Assembly: GCA_012517065.1 (NCBI GenBank)
Contig: JAAYVR010000015.1
Coordinates: 1-64,000, forward strand
DNA length: 64,000 nt
Reading direction: 5' to 3'
From: Verrucomicrobiota bacterium
Lineage (GTDB): Bacteria; Verrucomicrobiota; Verrucomicrobiia; Limisphaerales; J093
In this document: in pieces, positions 53,200-63,132 of the stretch
Position numbering within the stretch: the first letter of the stretch is position 1
Layout of the letters: every line of letters starts with the position of its first letter
Translations under genes and position numbers: made by a program
The notes under the pieces: generated by a model
What the model was told of the DNA's origin: nothing
Database searches by the model: none
The model's input: only the letters and a program-made list of their open reading frames with translations

Positions 53200-54030
53200 A
53201 TGCGCAGCGCGGAACGCCATTTCAGTGCTTTGCCCGGGTTTCGGTTCACGCTCGGGTACACGATGTTCTACCTTGGCGTTATCGTGGTCATTCCGATGGC
53301 CGCCCTTGCACTGAAAGCCCTCGAGTTGTCGCCGGGCGAGTTTTTTCGGCTTGTGAGCACGCCGCGCGCAATAGCGGCACTGCAGCTTACATTTGGGGCA
53401 TCATTTGTTGCAGCCTTCGTCAACGCAGTGTTTGGCACATTGTTGGCGTGGGTGCTGGTGCGTTATGAGTTTCCGGGGCGCCGCTGGGTGGATGCGCTGG
53501 TTGATTTTCCGTTTGCTTTGCCAACGGCCGTGGCTGGTCTTACTCTCGCGAGTCTGTTCGCTGAGAACGGTTGGCTGGGGCGATTTCTAGTGCCTTTGGG
53601 GTTTCATGGGGCTTTCACGCGGGCCGGCGTTGTAATAGCGCTTACGTTTGTCGGTCTGCCGTTCATGGTAAGGACGCTGCAGCCCATGCTCGAGAACTTC
53701 GAGCGCGACGTTGAGGAAGCGGCTGCCATCCTGGGCGCAAGCCGGCTTCGGACGTTCCTGACGATAATTGCGCCGACGCTGCTTCCTGGCGTGCTAACCG
53801 GTTTCACTCTCGCATTCGCGCGCGCTGTGGGCGAGTACGGCTCGATAGTCTTTATTTCCGGGAACCTTCCATTCCGGACCGAGATAGCGCCGTTTCTGGT
53901 CGTGATTCGACTCGAGGAATACGATTACAACGGTGCCACGGCAATAGCAGTGGTGTTATTGGTGGTGTCCTTCTTGATTCTCGCCGGGATAAACAAACTT
54001 CAGCTTTGGGCCAACAGATTCAATCGGTGA
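53200..54030 (+). CDS. cysT: Sulfate/thiosulfate ABC transporter permease CysT
   Basis: The 276-residue inner-membrane permease has six helices and the ABC permease EAA loop (EEAAAILGASRLRTFLTIIAPTLLPG), typical of CysT/CysU. Residues YEFPGRRWVDALVDFPFALPTAVAGL match the family well. It is followed 22 bp later by cysW and then cysA, so it is the first gene of a cysTWA operon importing sulfate for cysteine synthesis. A molybdate-type transporter is less likely because two separate permeases are present. No periplasmic binding protein gene precedes it. Confidence 0.92.
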   Translation: MRSAERHFSALPGFRFTLGYTMFYLGVIVVIPMAALALKALELSPGEFFRLVSTPRAIAALQLTFGASFVAAFVNAVFGTLLAWVLVRYEFPGRRWVDALVDFPFALPTAVAGLTLASLFAENGWLGRFLVPLGFHGAFTRAGVVIALTFVGLPFMVRTLQPMLENFERDVEEAAAILGASRLRTFLTIIAPTLLPGVLTGFTLAFARAVGEYGSIVFISGNLPFRTEIAPFLVVIRLEEYDYNGATAIAVVLLVVSFLILAGINKLQLWANRFNR

Positions 54031-54052
54031 ACACGGACCGTACTGGCAACTC

Positions 54053-54964
54053 ATGATAACTGAACGCCAAACTGCCAGAGGATCGCCACCGCGCGTGGCA
54101 GGATCGGGTTCGGGCGCAGGACGGTTCTTGTTGGTGGTGATTGCGATGCTTTTCGCGTTGGTGTTTCTGTTTTTGCCGTTGTTGAACGTTTTTGCAAAGG
54201 CTTTTGAAAAGGGCTGGACAGTGTTTTATGGTGCGTTGGTAAATCCCGACACGGTCTCGGCCATCAAGCTTTCGCTCACGATCACAGCAATTACTGTCCC
54301 ACTGAACCTCATTTTCGGCATCGCAGCGGCATGGGCCATCGCAAAGTTCGAGTTCAGATGGAAATCCCTGTTGGTTGCGCTCATTGATCTTCCGTTCTCA
54401 GTCTCACCGGTTGTCACCGGTCTGATGTTTGTGTTGCTGTTTGGCTTGCGCGGGTATTTGGGGCCGTGGCTGGATGCGCACAACATCCAGGTTATTTATG
54501 CAGTGCCGGGCATGGTGTTGGCCACAACATTCGTGACCTTGCCGTTCGTGGCGAGGGAGTTGATCCCCGTCATGCAGTCCGCAGGCAACGAACAGGAACA
54601 GGCGGCGTTGACCCTTGGGGCAAGCGGCTGGCAGACGTTCTGGCATGTGACGCTTCCGTCGGTCAAACTGGCGCTGCTGTACGGCGTGATCCTGTGCAAC
54701 GCCCGTGCGCTTGGCGAGTTCGGCGCCGTCTCAGTGGTCTCGGGGCATATTACGGGTCTGACAGATACGCTCCCGCTCCGGGTGGAGAAGTTGTACCAGG
54801 AGTACAATTCGACCGCAGCATTTGCCGTGGCGAGCATTCTGGCGCTGCTGGCTCTTGTCACACTCGCAATCAAGACGGCGTTCGAATGGCATACTCAGCG
54901 GGTTTATGCCAGAGCTGAGCGCGCCACTTCGGACGCCCGAACAACTCGCACGAAGTCAACTTGA
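54053..54964 (+). CDS. cysW: Sulfate/thiosulfate ABC transporter permease CysW
   Basis: The 303-residue second permease of the sulfate importer has six helices after a Ser/Gly-rich N-terminus. Diagnostic stretches are FAKAFEKGWTVFYGAL, DLPFSVSPVVTGLMFVLLFG and the EAA loop (EQEQAALTLGASGWQTFWHVTLPSVK), followed by ARALGEFGAVSVVSGHI. It begins 22 bp after cysT, and its stop overlaps the TTG start of cysA (TTGA), indicating coupled translation. Confidence 0.94.
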   Translation: MITERQTARGSPPRVAGSGSGAGRFLLVVIAMLFALVFLFLPLLNVFAKAFEKGWTVFYGALVNPDTVSAIKLSLTITAITVPLNLIFGIAAAWAIAKFEFRWKSLLVALIDLPFSVSPVVTGLMFVLLFGLRGYLGPWLDAHNIQVIYAVPGMVLATTFVTLPFVARELIPVMQSAGNEQEQAALTLGASGWQTFWHVTLPSVKLALLYGVILCNARALGEFGAVSVVSGHITGLTDTLPLRVEKLYQEYNSTAAFAVASILALLALVTLAIKTAFEWHTQRVYARAERATSDARTTRTKST

Positions 54965-56052
54965 GTATTGCGCTGAAAAGCGTGACGAAGCGGTTCGGCG
55001 ACACAATCGCTGTAAACGACCTTTCTTTTGCCGTGAACGAAGGCGAGCTGGTGGCTTTGCTCGGGCCAAGCGGCGGCGGCAAGACAACAGTGCTCAGGTT
55101 GATTGCCGGACTGGAAACGCCAACTTCCGGTGACATCTTCATTCGCGGCCATCGTGTGAACGACCTGCCTGTGCAGAAGCGAAACATAGGGTTCGTGTTC
55201 CAGAGCTATGCGCTGTTCAAGAACATGACCGTGTACCGAAACATCGCTTTTGGACTTCGCGTCAAGAAATGGAAACGCCGTGCAGCAAGAGAGCGTGTCG
55301 AGGAATTAATGCAATTGTTCGGGCTCGAGCAGCTTGGCCACCGTTATCCGCACCAGCTTTCAGGCGGCCAGCGACAGCGCGTGGCAATCGCGCGCGCGCT
55401 TGCACCCAAACCCGACGTTCTGTTGCTGGACGAACCGTTTGGGGCGGTTGACGCCAAGATTCGCCAGGAACTGCGCGAATGGCTGGTACGACTGCATCAC
55501 CAGTTCAACGTTACAACGCTGTTCGTCACGCATGACCAGGAAGAAGCCATGGAAGTCGCCAGCCGCATTGGCATCCTCAATTGCGGCCGTCTCGAGCAGG
55601 TGGGTTCTCCCCAAGAGGTCTATGAGCAGCCCGCCAACGAGTTCGTGGCAAGGTTCATCGGCGTCATGAACGTAATCGAACTCGAAGTTCGCAACGGCAT
55701 GGCGTGTTTGGATCAGATTGCGTTCCCTGCCCCTGGGTACAAAGACGGCGACAAAGTGCGCGTTGGGTTCCGGCCCTATAATGTCCGGGTTTCGCCCTCG
55801 ACCGATGAGTATCGGTGTCAGGCAGTGATCAGGCACACGTATTTCCTCGGCATAATGATGCGGCTGGACCTTGAACTGCCTTCTGGCGCCCGCGTATGCG
55901 CCCGGTTGACAAAGGAAGATTATAAACGTTTGGGACTGGCCACAGGCATGCGGGTATCATTCCAGATCGCAGAACACAAAATCCTCGGCGCCGCACAGAA
56001 CAGCAACGCTCACACCGCGGCCGGATCAGGGTGCACCCACGGCGAACGGTAA
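54961..56052 (+). CDS. cysA: Sulfate/thiosulfate ABC transporter ATPase CysA
   Basis: The 363-residue ATPase drives the CysTW permeases. Walker A is GPSGGGKTTVLRL, the signature motif LSGGQRQRVAIARAL and Walker B VLLLDEPFGAVD, with the switch His in FVTHDQEEAM. A C-terminal regulatory/TOBE-like region follows (about residues 235-350). The start is a TTG at 54961 overlapping the cysW stop; the family N-terminus (MSIALKSVTKRFGD) supports it. The 3' end overlaps the convergent oxidoreductase gene by 43 bases. Confidence 0.94.
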   Translation: MSIALKSVTKRFGDTIAVNDLSFAVNEGELVALLGPSGGGKTTVLRLIAGLETPTSGDIFIRGHRVNDLPVQKRNIGFVFQSYALFKNMTVYRNIAFGLRVKKWKRRAARERVEELMQLFGLEQLGHRYPHQLSGGQRQRVAIARALAPKPDVLLLDEPFGAVDAKIRQELREWLVRLHHQFNVTTLFVTHDQEEAMEVASRIGILNCGRLEQVGSPQEVYEQPANEFVARFIGVMNVIELEVRNGMACLDQIAFPAPGYKDGDKVRVGFRPYNVRVSPSTDEYRCQAVIRHTYFLGIMMRLDLELPSGARVCARLTKEDYKRLGLATGMRVSFQIAEHKILGAAQNSNAHTAAGSGCTHGER

Positions 56053-57362
56053 GGACGCTTCAGCAACCGCGTCGCTTCCGGGTCGTCGGTCACGATACCT
56101 TTCTCCGGGTCGTATTGCAGTGTGCGGCCGACGCTCATGGCGATGTTCGCCAAAATGCATGACGCGCTCGAGATGAAACCCTGTTCGATGTCCGCCACGG
56201 GCCGCGTGCGCGAATCAACTGCAGCAAGAAAGTTCTGCCAGTGCCGGCGCATTGGCGCTGCGCAATGGCGCTCGAGGTCTTTTTCGGTGCGATCCTCCGG
56301 ATACTTGTCGTATTCGTAAATTGCCTCGCCGTGCATGGGTTCGCCCCCGCCCAAAGGCGTGAAATCGTAGCTGAAAACACTGGCTTTGAGCGTTCCCTTG
56401 TCGCCGTAGATTGTTGCTGACCACGGGTATTTGGGGTCTGGCGCTTCGCCCCATGTCCGATGCTTCCAAACGACCTGCAGATCGCCGTAGTCGAAAGTGG
56501 CGATTTGAGTGTCGGTAATGTTTGCCCTGCTTGCCTTGTCCACGAGAATGCCGCCACTGGATGAGATTCGCTTGGGCCAGCCCAATTCGAGCAGCCACCG
56601 GACCATGTCAAACATGTGAATGCACATGTCACCGACGATGCCGTTGCCGTACTCCATGAATGCGCGCCAACTGCGCGGATGGACAAGCTTGTTGTAAGGC
56701 CGCATTGGCGCCGGCCCGGTCCACATTTCATAATCCAGATACTCGGGCGGCTCTGTGTCGGGCGGGTTCTCGCGGGCACGCATGTGCCAGTAACAGCATA
56801 TTTCCACGTGGGCGATCTTTCCAAGTTTGCCCTCGCGTAAAACCCTGTCGCGCGCCTCGATCAGATGCGGCGTGCTGCGGCGTTGAGTGTTGATTTGTAC
56901 GACGCGCCCGTACTTTCTTGCGGCAGCGAGCATTGCCTGGCCTTCGACGACATCGACCGAAATCGGCTTCTCGCAGTACACGTCGGCGCCTGCCTGCATT
57001 GCAGCGATCGATGGCAGGGCATGCCAATGATCCGGGGTCGAAACCATGACAATGTCAAGGTCCTTCTCCTTGAGCATTTCCCGCCAATCACTGTACGTGC
57101 GCGGCTTTTTCCGCGATTTCTGTCGCTCGGCCACCATTTCTGCCGCTTCTGCCAGCATTCGCCGGTCAACATCGCACAGCGACACCACTTCGACCGGTTC
57201 GACCTGCAGAAGCCGGAAGAGGCTGCTCTTGCCGTACCATCCGGTGCCTATGAGGCCGACACGTCTGGTTTTTTCTGCGGCGAAGGTTATTGGCAGGTAA
57301 CTTGCAGCCGTCACGGCCAGCCCTGTGGCGGCACCCATCCGAAGAAAACCGCGGCGATTCAT
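56010..57362 (-). CDS. Tat-exported Gfo/Idh/MocA family oxidoreductase
   Basis: I start it at the ATG at 57362 (MNRRGFLRMGAATGL), giving 450 residues with a Tat signal (NRRGFLRMGAATGLAV); the track start adds 136 residues of repeat and non-coding sequence. The Rossmann motif is VGLIGTGWYGKSS, followed by VSTPDHWHALPSIAAM and VYCEKPISVDV. The C-terminal substrate domain includes GDMCIHMFDMVRWLLELG. It oxidises an unknown sugar or related alcohol with NAD(P). It overlaps cysA tail to tail by 43 bases, which may reflect extension of one 3' end. A paralogue lies at 25324-26643, with moderate similarity. Confidence 0.9.
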   Translation of the reverse strand: MNRRGFLRMGAATGLAVTAASYLPITFAAEKTRRVGLIGTGWYGKSSLFRLLQVEPVEVVSLCDVDRRMLAEAAEMVAERQKSRKKPRTYSDWREMLKEKDLDIVMVSTPDHWHALPSIAAMQAGADVYCEKPISVDVVEGQAMLAAARKYGRVVQINTQRRSTPHLIEARDRVLREGKLGKIAHVEICCYWHMRARENPPDTEPPEYLDYEMWTGPAPMRPYNKLVHPRSWRAFMEYGNGIVGDMCIHMFDMVRWLLELGWPKRISSSGGILVDKASRANITDTQIATFDYGDLQVVWKHRTWGEAPDPKYPWSATIYGDKGTLKASVFSYDFTPLGGGEPMHGEAIYEYDKYPEDRTEKDLERHCAAPMRRHWQNFLAAVDSRTRPVADIEQGFISSASCILANIAMSVGRTLQYDPEKGIVTDDPEATRLLKRPYRSPWVHPDPAAV

Positions 57363-57760
57363 GGCGTTTTTTAGTAACTGAAAACCCCGACACGGGCAAG
57401 CGCGAATAAAGTGCCAGGCTCGTTGTTGTTTTTTCAGCGCGAATAAAGTGCCAGGCTCGTTGTTGTATCTGCCTTTCATGAAACCGCGCACGAGGCAGGA
57501 CGGGTGCTCCGCACGCTGGATTTGTTCTCTCTGTCCTGATTCCGGCTCAGCGGGACGGCGCGTCCTACCGTGCATGGAACCGCACACGACGTGGTCGGGG
57601 CTTTTTGAAATGGCACGGGCGCGGGTTCTCTGGTATGGAATATGACTGGCACGGCTGGGCCGAGTCACGGTCTCATTGGAATGGGCAAACGGCCCCCAAT
57701 CCAAGCGGGCTGCAAACACGGTCCGGTCAGGGCCAAACGAGTCGGTGTAACCACCTTTCA
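57363..57760. other. Divergent intergenic region with tandem 30-bp repeats
   Basis: The gap separates the oxidoreductase and folA genes. It holds two identical 30-base units (57400-57429 and 57437-57466) close to the oxidoreductase start, where its 5' untranslated region or promoter should lie. I see no gene in the rest. Confidence 0.65.
57400..57466 (-). repeat. Tandem pair of 30-bp direct repeats
   Basis: Both units contain aataaagtgccaggctcg and are identical over 30 bases with a 37-base period. On the minus strand the core reads GAGCCTGGCACTTTATTC, a variant of the GAGCCTGTCACTCTATT motif found at 27528 and 58431. Confidence 0.85.
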
Positions 57761-58228
57761 GTGAAAGCATTTAAGGCTATCGGCGCCATGTCTCTCAACC
57801 GCGTCATAGGACGCGGAGGCCGAATTCCGTGGCACATACCGGAGGAATTCAAGTGGTTCAAGAGAACCACAATGGGGCATGTGCTGGTCATGGGCAGGCG
57901 GACGTTTGAGTCGATAGGACGCCCTCTGCCGGGCCGGGAGACAATAGTCCTGAGCCGAACGGGATTTACACATCCCGGGGTAAGAACAGTGGCGAGCCTC
58001 GATGAAATCGGCCTTGGGAATGATCAGCGCGACATATTCATATGCGGGGGCGCTCAGGTGTACACAGCGGCGCTGCCGCGCTGCTCAGACCTTTTCCTGA
58101 CGGTTGTTGAACAGATTGTTGACGGCGACAGTTTCTTCCCGCCCTTCGAGCACTTGTTTGACGCGGGCGAGCTGGTCTTTGAAGGACCGGGTTTCAAAGT
58201 GATGCACTACCTTAGGAGGCAATCCTAG
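57761..58228 (+). CDS. folA: Dihydrofolate reductase
   Basis: The enzyme reduces dihydrofolate to tetrahydrofolate with NADPH in the cytoplasm. I start it at a GTG at 57761, which gives VKAFKAIGAMSLNRVIGRGGRIPWHIPEE, a normal DHFR opening, and 155 residues, the normal length. The track start at 57605 adds 52 unrelated residues. Motifs are IPWHIPEEFKWFK (Trp and catalytic Glu region), MGRRTFESIGRPLPGR (NADPH phosphate site) and DIFICGGAQVY. No thyA lies next to it. Confidence 0.94.
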   Translation: MKAFKAIGAMSLNRVIGRGGRIPWHIPEEFKWFKRTTMGHVLVMGRRTFESIGRPLPGRETIVLSRTGFTHPGVRTVASLDEIGLGNDQRDIFICGGAQVYTAALPRCSDLFLTVVEQIVDGDSFFPPFEHLFDAGELVFEGPGFKVMHYLRRQS

Positions 58229-58450: not shown

Positions 58451-58552
58451 TCAAATTTCAGCTTGTTGAGCAATGGACTTGGCAATATGGTATTCCAAGC
58501 TGGGTTAAGGCCCGATGTCATGACGCAAAGCTCTAAATACACCAGAATTTCA

Positions 58553-60136
58553 ATGATCACATCCAGATTCAGTGTGCCAGACACACAAGCGGTCTTGGCT
58601 GCCTTTTTATTGTTGTTTGGGTTGCCGGACGCAAATGCACAAACGACCCGGGTATCCAGCGCTCGAAACAGTCCACGCTTCATCAACCTCGAAGCAGCCC
58701 GCAAATCCGGTTCGACATGGGAAACTCATTCTGCGCCAGCATGGCAATATCGGCTGCTGCCAGGCGCACAGTTCATCGACGACTGCATGACGTGCGGACG
58801 TCCAACCTATCTGTTGCCGATGGAAGGGACATTCTCGTTGCGGCTTGTCGAGGAAAACCCTCTGTTCTCAACGTACGCGGTCGAAGACATATCTTTTCGT
58901 GCCGGCACACCGCCCGGGTTGTACTACAAGATCAGCGGCACCGGCACGTATCAAGTGGGCGGTGAAGTGGCCCTGGTTCAGACCATGAGCCTCAAGGTTC
59001 ACGTTGACGACGATTCCACGACCAGGCCCTGCACATTTACAAACAATCCGTCTCACGTGACACGCGGCTGGCCCCTGATCGAAATTGGCCTCGATCAGGC
59101 TGACGGCAACCCGATGCAGTTTTTCCGGATGACGTTCGTTGCCGCTCCCATTCGTGAGGTTTGGTTTTCGACCTCTCATGGTTTCACCCCGGGTGTTCAA
59201 CCTGCTCCGGCAGAACACGTTCGCGGAGGTGACCTTGTTTCTGACACTGGTCGGCTGGTCCTGCTCAACACGTATCTCAGGGGACGCCTCGGGCTGATGC
59301 CGTCTCCTGATCCTCCGGACATTGGACTGGACTGCGTGGACATTCTCCACGGTGGCGAAGTCGCTTTCTCGATCGAAGAAGACGCATTCAGCGAAACACT
59401 TGGGTTCATTAGCCACGGCGATGTGCTTTCCGATCGCAGCAGGGTGATTGCTGCCTACTCTGAGCTGATCGCGCCGTTTCGGCCAATGCCACCAATTGTT
59501 AATCCGGGCCTTGATGCGCTCCAGGTTTTCGATTCGGGTGAGATTTACTTCTCCGTCAAAAGCGAATTCTTTTCCGAAAGCCTCGGCGCAACGATCAGGC
59601 GCGGCGACCTGCTTTCGAACAAAGGAGTGATCGTCAAAACCCAAGAACAGCTCCTTGCGAAGTTCCATCCGCCACCAATCCCCATGGATTTCGGGCTCGA
59701 TGCAGTGTATGTCTGGCCCAGCGGTGAAATCTGGTTTTCTCTCGAGGAAACTTTGCAGGATGCTTCATTGGGGATAGTCCGCCATGGGGATCTTTTGAGC
59801 GACCGCGGCGAGATTGTTTATCGAAATTACGACCTGCTCCGGAACTTCCAGCCGCTGGAAGAACTGGCCGATTTTGGATTGGACTCGGTTTTCATTGTAA
59901 GCGACGCGATTGCTCTGCCTGCGGGTGTTGCGCGCTGCACGGGAATGGAATTGCTTCCGGATGGTGCCATCCGCTTGCACTGGAAAACCACTGGAAAACT
60001 CCGGCAACTGGAAAAAGCAACTTCTGTCCTCGGCCCGTGGAAAGCCGTCAGCCCGATAACCGTCGATCTCACTTTCGATGATCCAGAGGGACCAAAGCAT
60101 GTTCCACAGGCTTTCTACCGCCTGCGTGAATGGTAG
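58553..60136 (+). CDS. Secreted protein with four tandem ~62-residue repeats and a CxxCGRP motif, family unknown
   Basis: The start is uncertain. I use the ATG at 58553, which gives a signal peptide (QAVLAAFLLLFGLPDANAQ) and 527 residues; the track start is a TTG at 58463 and another ATG lies at 58520. Near residue 78 is DDCMTCGRPTYLLP. From about residue 255 come three clear and one partial unit of about 62 residues with consensus GLDAV...GEI.FS.E....LG....GDLLS..G.IV....LL..F.P. The C-terminal module (LHWKTTGKLRQLEKATSVLGPW ... FYRLREW) is shared with the next gene. It is probably a beta-rich extracellular protein. The repeats may form a propeller or solenoid, which is inference. Confidence 0.75.
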   Translation: MITSRFSVPDTQAVLAAFLLLFGLPDANAQTTRVSSARNSPRFINLEAARKSGSTWETHSAPAWQYRLLPGAQFIDDCMTCGRPTYLLPMEGTFSLRLVEENPLFSTYAVEDISFRAGTPPGLYYKISGTGTYQVGGEVALVQTMSLKVHVDDDSTTRPCTFTNNPSHVTRGWPLIEIGLDQADGNPMQFFRMTFVAAPIREVWFSTSHGFTPGVQPAPAEHVRGGDLVSDTGRLVLLNTYLRGRLGLMPSPDPPDIGLDCVDILHGGEVAFSIEEDAFSETLGFISHGDVLSDRSRVIAAYSELIAPFRPMPPIVNPGLDALQVFDSGEIYFSVKSEFFSESLGATIRRGDLLSNKGVIVKTQEQLLAKFHPPPIPMDFGLDAVYVWPSGEIWFSLEETLQDASLGIVRHGDLLSDRGEIVYRNYDLLRNFQPLEELADFGLDSVFIVSDAIALPAGVARCTGMELLPDGAIRLHWKTTGKLRQLEKATSVLGPWKAVSPITVDLTFDDPEGPKHVPQAFYRLREW

Positions 60137-60189: not shown

Positions 60190-63132
60190 ATGGTAACAAT
60201 GAAAAGGATTAGTATGCAGCCGTCTTGCGAGTTGGTGCGGCTTGGATTTGAACCGGCCTACTTGGCCCTGCTCACATGTGCAGGGCTCAAGCCAATGAGC
60301 CGGCTTGAAAACTGTTCAAACCCTGATCATCAGCGCGTCCTGCAAGCGGCCGGACTCAAAACGCGCGTGATCCATCGCTGGACAAGGTCGGGCAAACGCA
60401 TTCCAGAAATCATTTTCGCCCGCTCGGACGTAGTTCTGTCCGAATACGCTGCGCGCTTCGACAACAAAACCCTCGAACGCACGCCGGATGACATGCGGTT
60501 TGAGGGCCGCATGTTTGGCTATCCTGCTTGCTGCACCGAGAGTTACATCACACGCGGTTACGCCCCCAATTCGTTGCGCCGCGCCGACCAGAGTATTCTG
60601 TTTCACTGGGCCTGCGATGGTTGCAAAGTCACCCCCACGTTACTGCCCGAATACCGGCGCGTTTACCGCCGGTGCAGACAGTTATTCCGCAGAAAACCCA
60701 ACGCCTGCATCAGGCCTCCAAAACCAACCTCATCCCGAAACGTCAAACGAACACTCGCGTTTGCGGCATCGGTGGCAGCCGTGTTGACGCTTCCGCAAAC
60801 AGCGCTCCATAGCAGCCCCTCCATGCCACCCATCGACCCTCACTGGCTCCAACTCGGACCGGACACCGACCCCGACGGCGATTTGCTCACCACCGAGGAG
60901 GAAATCGTTCTTGGCACCAACCCAGCCCAGCCCGACCAGAATCAAAACGCAGTGCCGGATGGCCCCGACCTCGCATTCCAGTTCGCAGACATGATTGCTC
61001 TACTGCCAACAAAGACATCCGACACCGAACCTTATGCAATTCACAACATGGCTTTCGGACTCGAGACCTGCAAGGTCTGCGGCCAAACAGCCAACATGGG
61101 CTTCATCACTATCGTCAACCCCCTCGAAAACCAGATAATCCACATCCCATACATCGGACTTCATTACCTCGAACACGGCAGTTTTCAGTTCGATGGCACG
61201 GTGCACTCCGGTCGCGTCAATCCCCCGCTTCTCCGGACGGTCCTGACGAGCGATGGCCGCAGGCATTTCATATCGGAACCCGAAGCGTACGACTCCGACA
61301 ATGACGGGCTGCGCGATTGGGAAGAGCCACTCCTCGGCACCAACCCAAACATGGCCGATTCGAACGGTAACCTCGTCATTGACGGTGCGGAAACGATGCG
61401 CGCTTTCCGAGCTTCTCTCGAACAGCTCCCTCGAGCTGTCAGCCCCGACGCCGGCCCGAAAGACACGCCGTTCGTTGTCGAGCATCCGATGAAGGGTATC
61501 GAAACCTGCCCTCGCTGCGGCGAACAGGTCGCAATGAACATCTGGGATGTGATCAACCCGGTCACCCACGCCAAAATGTCCATCCCTTCAATGGCTCTGC
61601 ATTACCTCGAACATTGTGGACCAACATGGGAAGGCGGCCAGTTAATGGGCGGTAAAGGCCGCGTCGAACCGCTTCGCCTGCAAGGCCTGCTCAACGGTCA
61701 GCTCGACGGACATTGCCTCGAAGTCCCATCGGACATCGACAGCGACCTCCTGTCCGATCAGGAGGAAACAGACCTTGGCATGGACCCGCGTTGCACTGAC
61801 CATGACAAAAACCAAGTGCCCGACGGAGCCGATCTTGCCCGCGCCACAGCCGCTCAAATCGAGGGTTTGCCCACAGAACCAACCGCCGCCGTTCACAGGC
61901 TCGACTTCAAGCTGCGCGGCCTCGAGCAATGCGAAATCTGTGGTGACACCGTCAACATGGGTCACCTCACCGTCTGCAATACTGCCGCAGACCTCTATGC
62001 AAAAGTCCCTTACATCAGCCTGCATTACTTGCAGCACGGCAGTTTCTCTTTCGCCGGTGATGTCCACGGAAGCGGCCGCCTCGAGGTCAAGCTGCTCATA
62101 AACGCCCTTCACTCAAAAGGCCCGTCCCACCTGCTCCCGACTTACGGCGACGCCGACCGAGACGGACTCAAGGATTTCGAGGAAGCCCGCTTTGGGTTCG
62201 ACAAAAGCAGACCCGACAGCGACGACGACGGTGTTCCCGACGGGTTCTGGCTCGCGCGCAAGATGTTCAATGAAATCCAGGCCCTCAGCCGCACACCTAA
62301 CCAAACCTGTTTTGCAGTCGAAAACCCGTTGCGCGGGATCGACACTTGCGATGTCTGCGGCGTCAACGTCAACATGGGCTGGCTCGACATCATCAACCCA
62401 CCCGAACAACTGAAAGTCCAGGTCAGTTATCTCGCTCTCCATTTCCTTGACCACGGGAGTTTCGCGTCCTCACCCGGTAATCGACTCAACCCTTGTCTTT
62501 TGGACATCGCACTCCATGGGAACGGCTCATCTCACCTCGTTGTCTGGAAAGGCGATTCAGACAGTGATGGGTTGCTCGACGGTGAGGAAACGTACTTCGA
62601 CACCCGCCCTGACCGCGCCGATACGGACGGCGACGGCGTTCTTGATGGAATTGCTATCGCGCGGCAATTGTACCAGAAAGTCCAGGCACTGCCAGTCGGA
62701 CGGCACCAGAGCGGTCGTTACCGCCTTTTGTATGAGACCGACTGCTTGACCCCTTGCCCCGTGTGCGGCGAAAGCGTCAACTGCGGTCATTTGGAAGTGG
62801 TTAGCGAATGGGCTGGCAAATCGGTTCACATTTCTTTCCTCAACCTCCATTACCTTGAACACGGCAGCTTCGCCGTCTCGCAATCCGAACGCATCGATCC
62901 CGTGGCATTGGACGAGTTGCTCAAGCCGATTCCTTCCATTGCGCTCACAGCAGAGGGCGTAACGCTGCGCTGGCCAAGCCGCACGGACAAAACATACCAG
63001 GTCTTCACGTCCATGAACGCCCTCGGCCCATGGCTGCCCGGACCAGTGTTCAGCGGGACCGGCGAAGAGCTTTCATTCACCGATCCCGACACCAGCTCGC
63101 CACTCAAGCTGTACCAAGTTCGAACGAATTAG
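60190..63132 (+). CDS. Large protein with Cys-rich N-terminal domain and five CxxCG...HYLEHGSF repeats, family unknown
   Basis: The 980-residue protein has an N-terminal domain (1-175) with FGYPACCTESY near residue 112 and HWACDGCKVTP, reminiscent of DUF483-like CC motifs. A single hydrophobic helix follows at about 187-205 (LAFAASVAAVLTLPQTAL). Then come five modules of about 140 residues, with CxxC near 293, 437, 580, 718 and 855 and, some 28 residues later, LHYLEHGSF or a variant. Linkers contain Ca-binding D-x-D-x-D-G loops (DTDPDGD, DSDNDGLRD, DSDSDGLLD). CxxC plus HxxxH suggests a zinc or other metal site in each module. A C-terminal LRWPSRTDKTYQVFTS...LGPW module ends it. It follows the previous repeat protein by 53 bp and may form a two-gene operon with it. 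Confidence 0.8.
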   Translation: MVTMKRISMQPSCELVRLGFEPAYLALLTCAGLKPMSRLENCSNPDHQRVLQAAGLKTRVIHRWTRSGKRIPEIIFARSDVVLSEYAARFDNKTLERTPDDMRFEGRMFGYPACCTESYITRGYAPNSLRRADQSILFHWACDGCKVTPTLLPEYRRVYRRCRQLFRRKPNACIRPPKPTSSRNVKRTLAFAASVAAVLTLPQTALHSSPSMPPIDPHWLQLGPDTDPDGDLLTTEEEIVLGTNPAQPDQNQNAVPDGPDLAFQFADMIALLPTKTSDTEPYAIHNMAFGLETCKVCGQTANMGFITIVNPLENQIIHIPYIGLHYLEHGSFQFDGTVHSGRVNPPLLRTVLTSDGRRHFISEPEAYDSDNDGLRDWEEPLLGTNPNMADSNGNLVIDGAETMRAFRASLEQLPRAVSPDAGPKDTPFVVEHPMKGIETCPRCGEQVAMNIWDVINPVTHAKMSIPSMALHYLEHCGPTWEGGQLMGGKGRVEPLRLQGLLNGQLDGHCLEVPSDIDSDLLSDQEETDLGMDPRCTDHDKNQVPDGADLARATAAQIEGLPTEPTAAVHRLDFKLRGLEQCEICGDTVNMGHLTVCNTAADLYAKVPYISLHYLQHGSFSFAGDVHGSGRLEVKLLINALHSKGPSHLLPTYGDADRDGLKDFEEARFGFDKSRPDSDDDGVPDGFWLARKMFNEIQALSRTPNQTCFAVENPLRGIDTCDVCGVNVNMGWLDIINPPEQLKVQVSYLALHFLDHGSFASSPGNRLNPCLLDIALHGNGSSHLVVWKGDSDSDGLLDGEETYFDTRPDRADTDGDGVLDGIAIARQLYQKVQALPVGRHQSGRYRLLYETDCLTPCPVCGESVNCGHLEVVSEWAGKSVHISFLNLHYLEHGSFAVSQSERIDPVALDELLKPIPSIALTAEGVTLRWPSRTDKTYQVFTSMNALGPWLPGPVFSGTGEELSFTDPDTSSPLKLYQVRTN

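Follow-up and report, generated by a model that had tools for sequence, protein, structure and literature searches.

In sensors of the RsgI and FecR types, a cytosolic head is followed by one membrane segment and an exported modular part. DUF483 (PF04467) is a poorly understood domain for which fused forms with a radical SAM or methyltransferase domain have been mentioned, and a radical SAM/DUF483 gene set has been described in Thermus phages (PMC11437467). Here we describe a gene, located in the 64,000-nucleotide stretch of Verrucomicrobiota DNA that was analyzed (the window), in which a DUF483-like head precedes a signal-like hydrophobic segment and an array of CxxCG/HxxxH modules that alternate with calcium-type loops (Table 1).

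The protein is encoded by a single ORF that is present in one copy in its own genome. Exact matches to C..CG-x26-H-x3-H begin at residues 294, 440, 581, 720 and 856, and a looser module pattern occurs five times, compared with 0.009 occurrences expected and a maximum of two in 5,000 composition shuffles, confirming the initial annotation of five modules in one gene, about 140 residues apart. Since conservation of the gene extends across families and it is under purifying selection relative to a sister species (L003; dN/dS ~0.29 over the first 230 codons), it is not a chance ORF; the shuffles and the conservation together rule out a chance or repeat artifact. The HYLEHGSF motif first read in the modules is present as a region, but copy 3 has HYLQHGSF and copy 4 has HFLDHGSF. 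D-x-D-x-D-G segments do lie between the modules, as originally noted, and are of the TSP3 type, with the pair before module 3 degenerate. Exact matches to D-x-[DN]-x-D-G fall at residues 225, 368, 654, 676, 789 and 811. The Pfam TSP3_bac model (PF18884) matches residues 368–389 with E 2.5e-4 and 21.2 bits, under the cut-off of 25, and scores above cut-off in homologues (28.5 in L087 and 38.4 in L102).

Table 1. Parts of the gene for the module-bearing protein, with positions in the window
Feature	Position	Strand	Basis
Whole ORF, 980 aa	60190..63132	+	full-length homologues exist
N-terminal DUF483-like Cys-rich domain, residues ~18-165; GLKPxSR, FGYPxCC, FHWACxxC	60241..60684	+	invariant columns, hhalign, AF2
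Signal-peptide-like or signal-anchor hydrophobic segment, residues 189-205, LAFAASVAAVLTLPQTA	60754..60804	+	same place in all fused homologues
TSP3-type calcium loops 1	60862..60963	+	loop motif match
CxxCG/HxxxH module 1	61039..61245	+	
TSP3-type calcium loops 2	61291..61386	+	TSP3_bac match
Module 2 (HYLEHCGP)	61477..61692	+	
Degenerate TSP3-type segment 3	61732..61827	+	
Module 3 (HYLQHGSF)	61900..62109	+	
TSP3-type calcium loops 4	62149..62244	+	loop motif match
Module 4 (HFLDHGSF)	62317..62514	+	
TSP3-type calcium loops 5	62554..62649	+	loop motif match
Module 5 (NCG subtype, extra Cys pair)	62728..62922	+	G7C + M20C together in 5/5
C-terminal domain, putatively of sorting or anchor type	62908..63129	+	common to other secreted-type proteins including the upstream neighbor

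Which residues define the module? In an alignment of 88 modules from about 25 loci, the first Cys, second Cys and first His are retained in 86/87, 87/87 and 86/86 modules, respectively, and all three are invariant among intact module copies. At the second His position, His is found in 73 of 86 modules and Cys in five, a few modules carry T, N, A, K or R, and the Myxococcota modules have the second His displaced by one residue (HxxxxH). Some modules lack the second His, which means that HxxxH does not provide the same ligand pair throughout, and since a non-ligand residue replaces this His in about 9% of modules, a CCHH site cannot form in every module. The earlier proposal that CxxC and HxxxH are conserved above their surroundings holds best for the two Cys and the first His, whose conservation is ligand-like, and less uniformly for the variable second His. 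The exchange of His for Cys at this position would be a ligand-type swap typical of metal ligands, and the module is probably a zinc site.

The modules also differ by position. Copy number varies from two to seven across homologues (the seven-module protein, L089, repeats the first two types), and in most Verrucomicrobiota homologues modules are 47–69% alike with their positional counterparts, compared with 29–46% among the modules of the window protein. As modules are closer to their positional counterparts than to each other, simple copy-number noise is ruled out. In the sister species, the loop of module 1 is joined directly to the loop of module 3 (L003:7292-8203); this copy appears to have lost modules 1 and 2, though the L003 contig ends soon after. 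The loss of GSF from copy 2 (HYLEHCGP), noted at the outset, is peculiar to the window protein, its orthologues having HGAF or HGGF. The NCG of copy 5 is not drift; it is conserved in every orthologue that has the last module and is accompanied by an extra upstream Cys; the two Cys occur together in 5/5 modules and never apart. Copy 5 is best described as a conserved subtype in which an extra Cys co-varies, and since the pair always co-occurs, it suggests a disulfide and hence an oxidizing compartment.

These patterns bear on whether the metal is structural. The modules could instead form a functional metal or redox site, for example copper or a redox-active CxxC plus His of the Sco type, as the most invariant set is two Cys and one His, the second His is variable and the Met of the NMG motif is nearly invariant (82 of 87 modules, with Cys in the rest). 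We consider this quite unlikely, given that Cys, the commonest single replacement of the second His, is typical of zinc sites, that a disulfide explains the linked appearance of two new Cys better than a ligand swap does, and that no redox or copper genes are found among the conserved neighbors.

The initial annotation recognized no named family for the module, and this was borne out: neither the whole protein nor module profiles found one when searched against Pfam, NCBIfam and PDB sequences. In the whole-protein Pfam search, zf-C2HC_2 scored 17.9, below its cut-off of 27, and none of 15 modules matched a Pfam zinc-finger model with E better than 0.01. AlphaFold modeled two modules with their loop pairs (297 residues) with a pLDDT of 92.8, placing the CxxC in a turn flanked by short strands, followed by a hairpin and a helix carrying HxxxH. 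This predicted order of secondary structure is compatible with a single Cys/His site resembling a metal knuckle. No solved fold matches the two-module model, the best PDB match (E 0.81) being to a structure that is not a zinc finger. The module thus adds an unnamed, metal-binding-like unit whose confidently predicted fold lacks a solved counterpart.

The initial annotation described a plain surface repeat array, a description that fails because the putative export signal comes only after about 185 residues, among them a highly conserved domain of the DUF483 kind. Twenty-seven columns of this head, including KPxSR, FGxPxCC and FHWxCxxC, are invariant among 24 sequences, and AlphaFold predicts its structure with a pLDDT of 91.6. 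The head, searched as a profile against Pfam, NCBIfam and PDB sequences, gave scores below cut-off or no family; the window head scores 16.8 bits against DUF483, under the Pfam gathering score of 25, while eight of nine head members match DUF483 (best E 6e-5). By hhalign, the head aligns over GxKP...GYPxCCV with eight Myxococcota proteins, all of which match DUF483 (best E 1.3e-8), at 98.8% and E 4.9e-17. Because of this profile-profile match to DUF483-matching proteins, we treat the head as a diverged relative of DUF483. A Foldseek search matched it to 2guk with probability 1.00, TMt 0.63, E 0.018 and 19% identity, over part of its length. As a relative of DUF483, the head gives this domain a new constant partner outside the radical SAM and methyltransferase contexts.

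The two-part design is rare and recurs in three bacterial phyla. Within the order, 11 of 293 genomes proved to carry modules, and 10 of these also have the head. The exception (G006, L121:3515-4702) is a truncated, headless copy in which one module has C-to-S and H-to-Q changes, the former seen at a module Cys only here; it is probably a decaying gene, and we do not count it as a genuine module-only protein because of the truncation and the mutated ligands. A second candidate (G826, L118:3-1673) was set aside because it resembles only the first half of the module, in a subtilase-like frame ending CGLCGVSANTAYLNIANPSA. In the phylum of L004, which we call FCB-like after the C-terminal domains of its homologues, modules occur in 13 of 82 genomes, and the strong head matches fall in exactly these 13. 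Two Myxococcota loci (L005 and L006) encode the head and the modules as adjacent overlapping genes, both lacking TSP3 loops and a signal peptide; the pair can therefore do without export, and this arrangement argues that head and modules cooperate even when not exported. In a tree of heads, the Verrucomicrobiota sequences group together (support 0.85) and the Myxococcota pair falls within the FCB-like sequences (0.91), a topology that would fit horizontal transfer. No relatives were found in the plasmids, phages and viral contigs searched, PADLOC models did not identify a known anti-phage defense protein, and PHROGs returned nothing useful.

How might head and modules work together? In one possible peptide-modification system, the modules would be the head's substrate, with the DUF483-like domain modifying conserved module residues before export. 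The two parts do accompany each other, either in cis or encoded by adjacent genes, in all but the one decayed copy, and DUF483 is fused to radical SAM enzymes both in the literature (PMC11437467) and in two of the Myxococcota DUF483 proteins, in which a radical SAM-type domain at the N-terminus is joined to a DUF483-like domain at the C-terminus (L056:931-2889, by Pfam scan, and L055:319-2355, as read from its sequence). However, the neighborhoods surveyed show no conserved radical SAM gene next to the fused genes, and modification is putative on both sides, the head having no known catalytic activity and the modules no known modification; we regard this explanation as distinctly improbable. 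It is also unlikely, in our estimate, that the head is a cytosolic maturase or metal loader that acts in cis on the modules and is later cut off at an internal signal peptide. If true, this would be a self-maturing exported metalloprotein system that has been horizontally transferred among three phyla.

In all fused homologues, a basic flank and then a hydrophobic stretch, often ending in A-x-A or A-x-G followed by Q, lie between the head and the repeats. From this order of head, signal-like segment and repeats, we infer that the head would be cytosolic and the repeats exported. The C-termini were compared for a sorting domain of the kind carried by T9SS-type exported proteins. Those of the FCB-like homologues match FlgD_ig above cut-off and Por_Secre_tail below cut-off. 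A Pfam search of the whole window protein found no sorting domain of these types; the Verrucomicrobiota homologues end in a different domain of about 75 amino acids that recurs in other proteins of relatives. The upstream neighbor of the window gene shares this domain; its profile match arises by construction, since the neighbor was among the sequences that made up the profile, but the alignment itself shows W, GPW and FYR positions in common. Together, the signal-like segment and the C-terminal sorting-type domain make an exported location of the repeats likely. Of the surface-exposed, multivalent metal-binding architecture envisaged at the outset, the multivalency and ligand-like conservation stand and export is likely, but the part preceding the signal should be cytosolic.

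If the order is cytosolic domain, signal segment and exported repeats, the head could be a helper that is cleaved off, or it could form a sensor's inner half. A soluble domain preceding a cleavable signal peptide is an unusual order, and an uncleaved anchor is equally possible. With such an anchor, the protein could be a single-pass transmembrane sensor resembling RsgI or FecR, in which the head is the cytosolic output domain and the repeats sense an extracellular ligand or divalent metals; the constant order in all fused homologues would be expected of such a protein, and the 27 invariant head residues suggest an active or binding site. We nevertheless consider a sensor somewhat unlikely. The segments show no more than moderate hydrophobicity and frequently have ends resembling signal peptidase motifs, the sorting-type domains of the FCB-like homologues imply that the protein reaches the outer surface, a membrane segment is missing from the Myxococcota version, and no regulatory gene is conserved nearby in the neighborhoods surveyed.

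The genes around the FCB-like loci point to an extracytoplasmic role, because they are of secreted types. Of these 13 loci, five have a DUF3160 gene directly upstream (L095, L097, L099, L100 and L106), seven have a serpin gene nearby (L095, L096, L097, L099, L100, L101 and L103) and three have a gene for a carboxypeptidase-regulatory-like repeat protein directly upstream. DUF3160 is described as a family of secreted enzymes (PMC4158269). The Verrucomicrobiota loci have no conserved neighbor except for the upstream gene, which is kept in the sister species. In the window, this gene (58463-60136, + strand) encodes 557 amino acids with internal repeats of FGLD..GEIWFSLEE..LG..RHGDLLSD and the same type of C-terminal domain; it belongs to no Pfam family and, among the loci compared, was found only in L003 (96.8%). 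Further upstream are apparent genes for an ABC transporter (53200-56052), a Gfo/Idh-type oxidoreductase (56010-57770, − strand) and a dihydrofolate reductase-like protein (57605-58228), as read from sequence only.

Our confidence is high for the architecture and moderate to low for the function. We tentatively favor a two-part precursor consisting of a cytosolic DUF483-like head and an exported, multivalent rod stabilized by calcium and probably zinc. The N-terminal domain would fold in the cytosol, and the signal-peptide-like segment would send the downstream part across the membrane. There, each unit of the rod would consist of a calcium-loop pair and a small metal-knuckle module, probably stabilized by one zinc ion and offering one binding surface, and the rod would be followed by a C-terminal domain for sorting or anchoring. 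The most likely role of the modules is multivalent binding to an extracellular partner. Either cleavage would leave the head behind, or the head would stay attached as the cytosolic portion of a signal-anchored protein; before export it probably helps the modules, by metal loading or modification.

How does this protein compare with described systems? Like DUF483, the head contains GLKP...R, FGYPxCCV and a later Cys pair, but it has FHWxCxxC where DUF483 has PCxxxC, and it is fused to putatively exported repeats rather than to radical SAM or methyltransferase domains. Its predicted fold is partly like that of 2guk, a Porphyromonas gingivalis protein of unknown function. The loop pairs resemble bacterial TSP3 repeats (PF18884) in their D-x-D-x-D-G motifs, but here they are spacers that alternate with an unrelated metal-knuckle-like module. 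That module shares a CxxC turn, a hairpin and an HxxxH helix with treble-clef and C2H2 zinc fingers, from which it differs in its wider spacing, its NMG and HGSF motifs, the calcium loops between repeats and its lack of a family or solved-fold match. Finally, the order of head, segment and exported modular part is that of RsgI- and FecR-type sensors, although here the domains are different, no sigma-factor context was seen and some homologues carry a C-terminal sorting domain.
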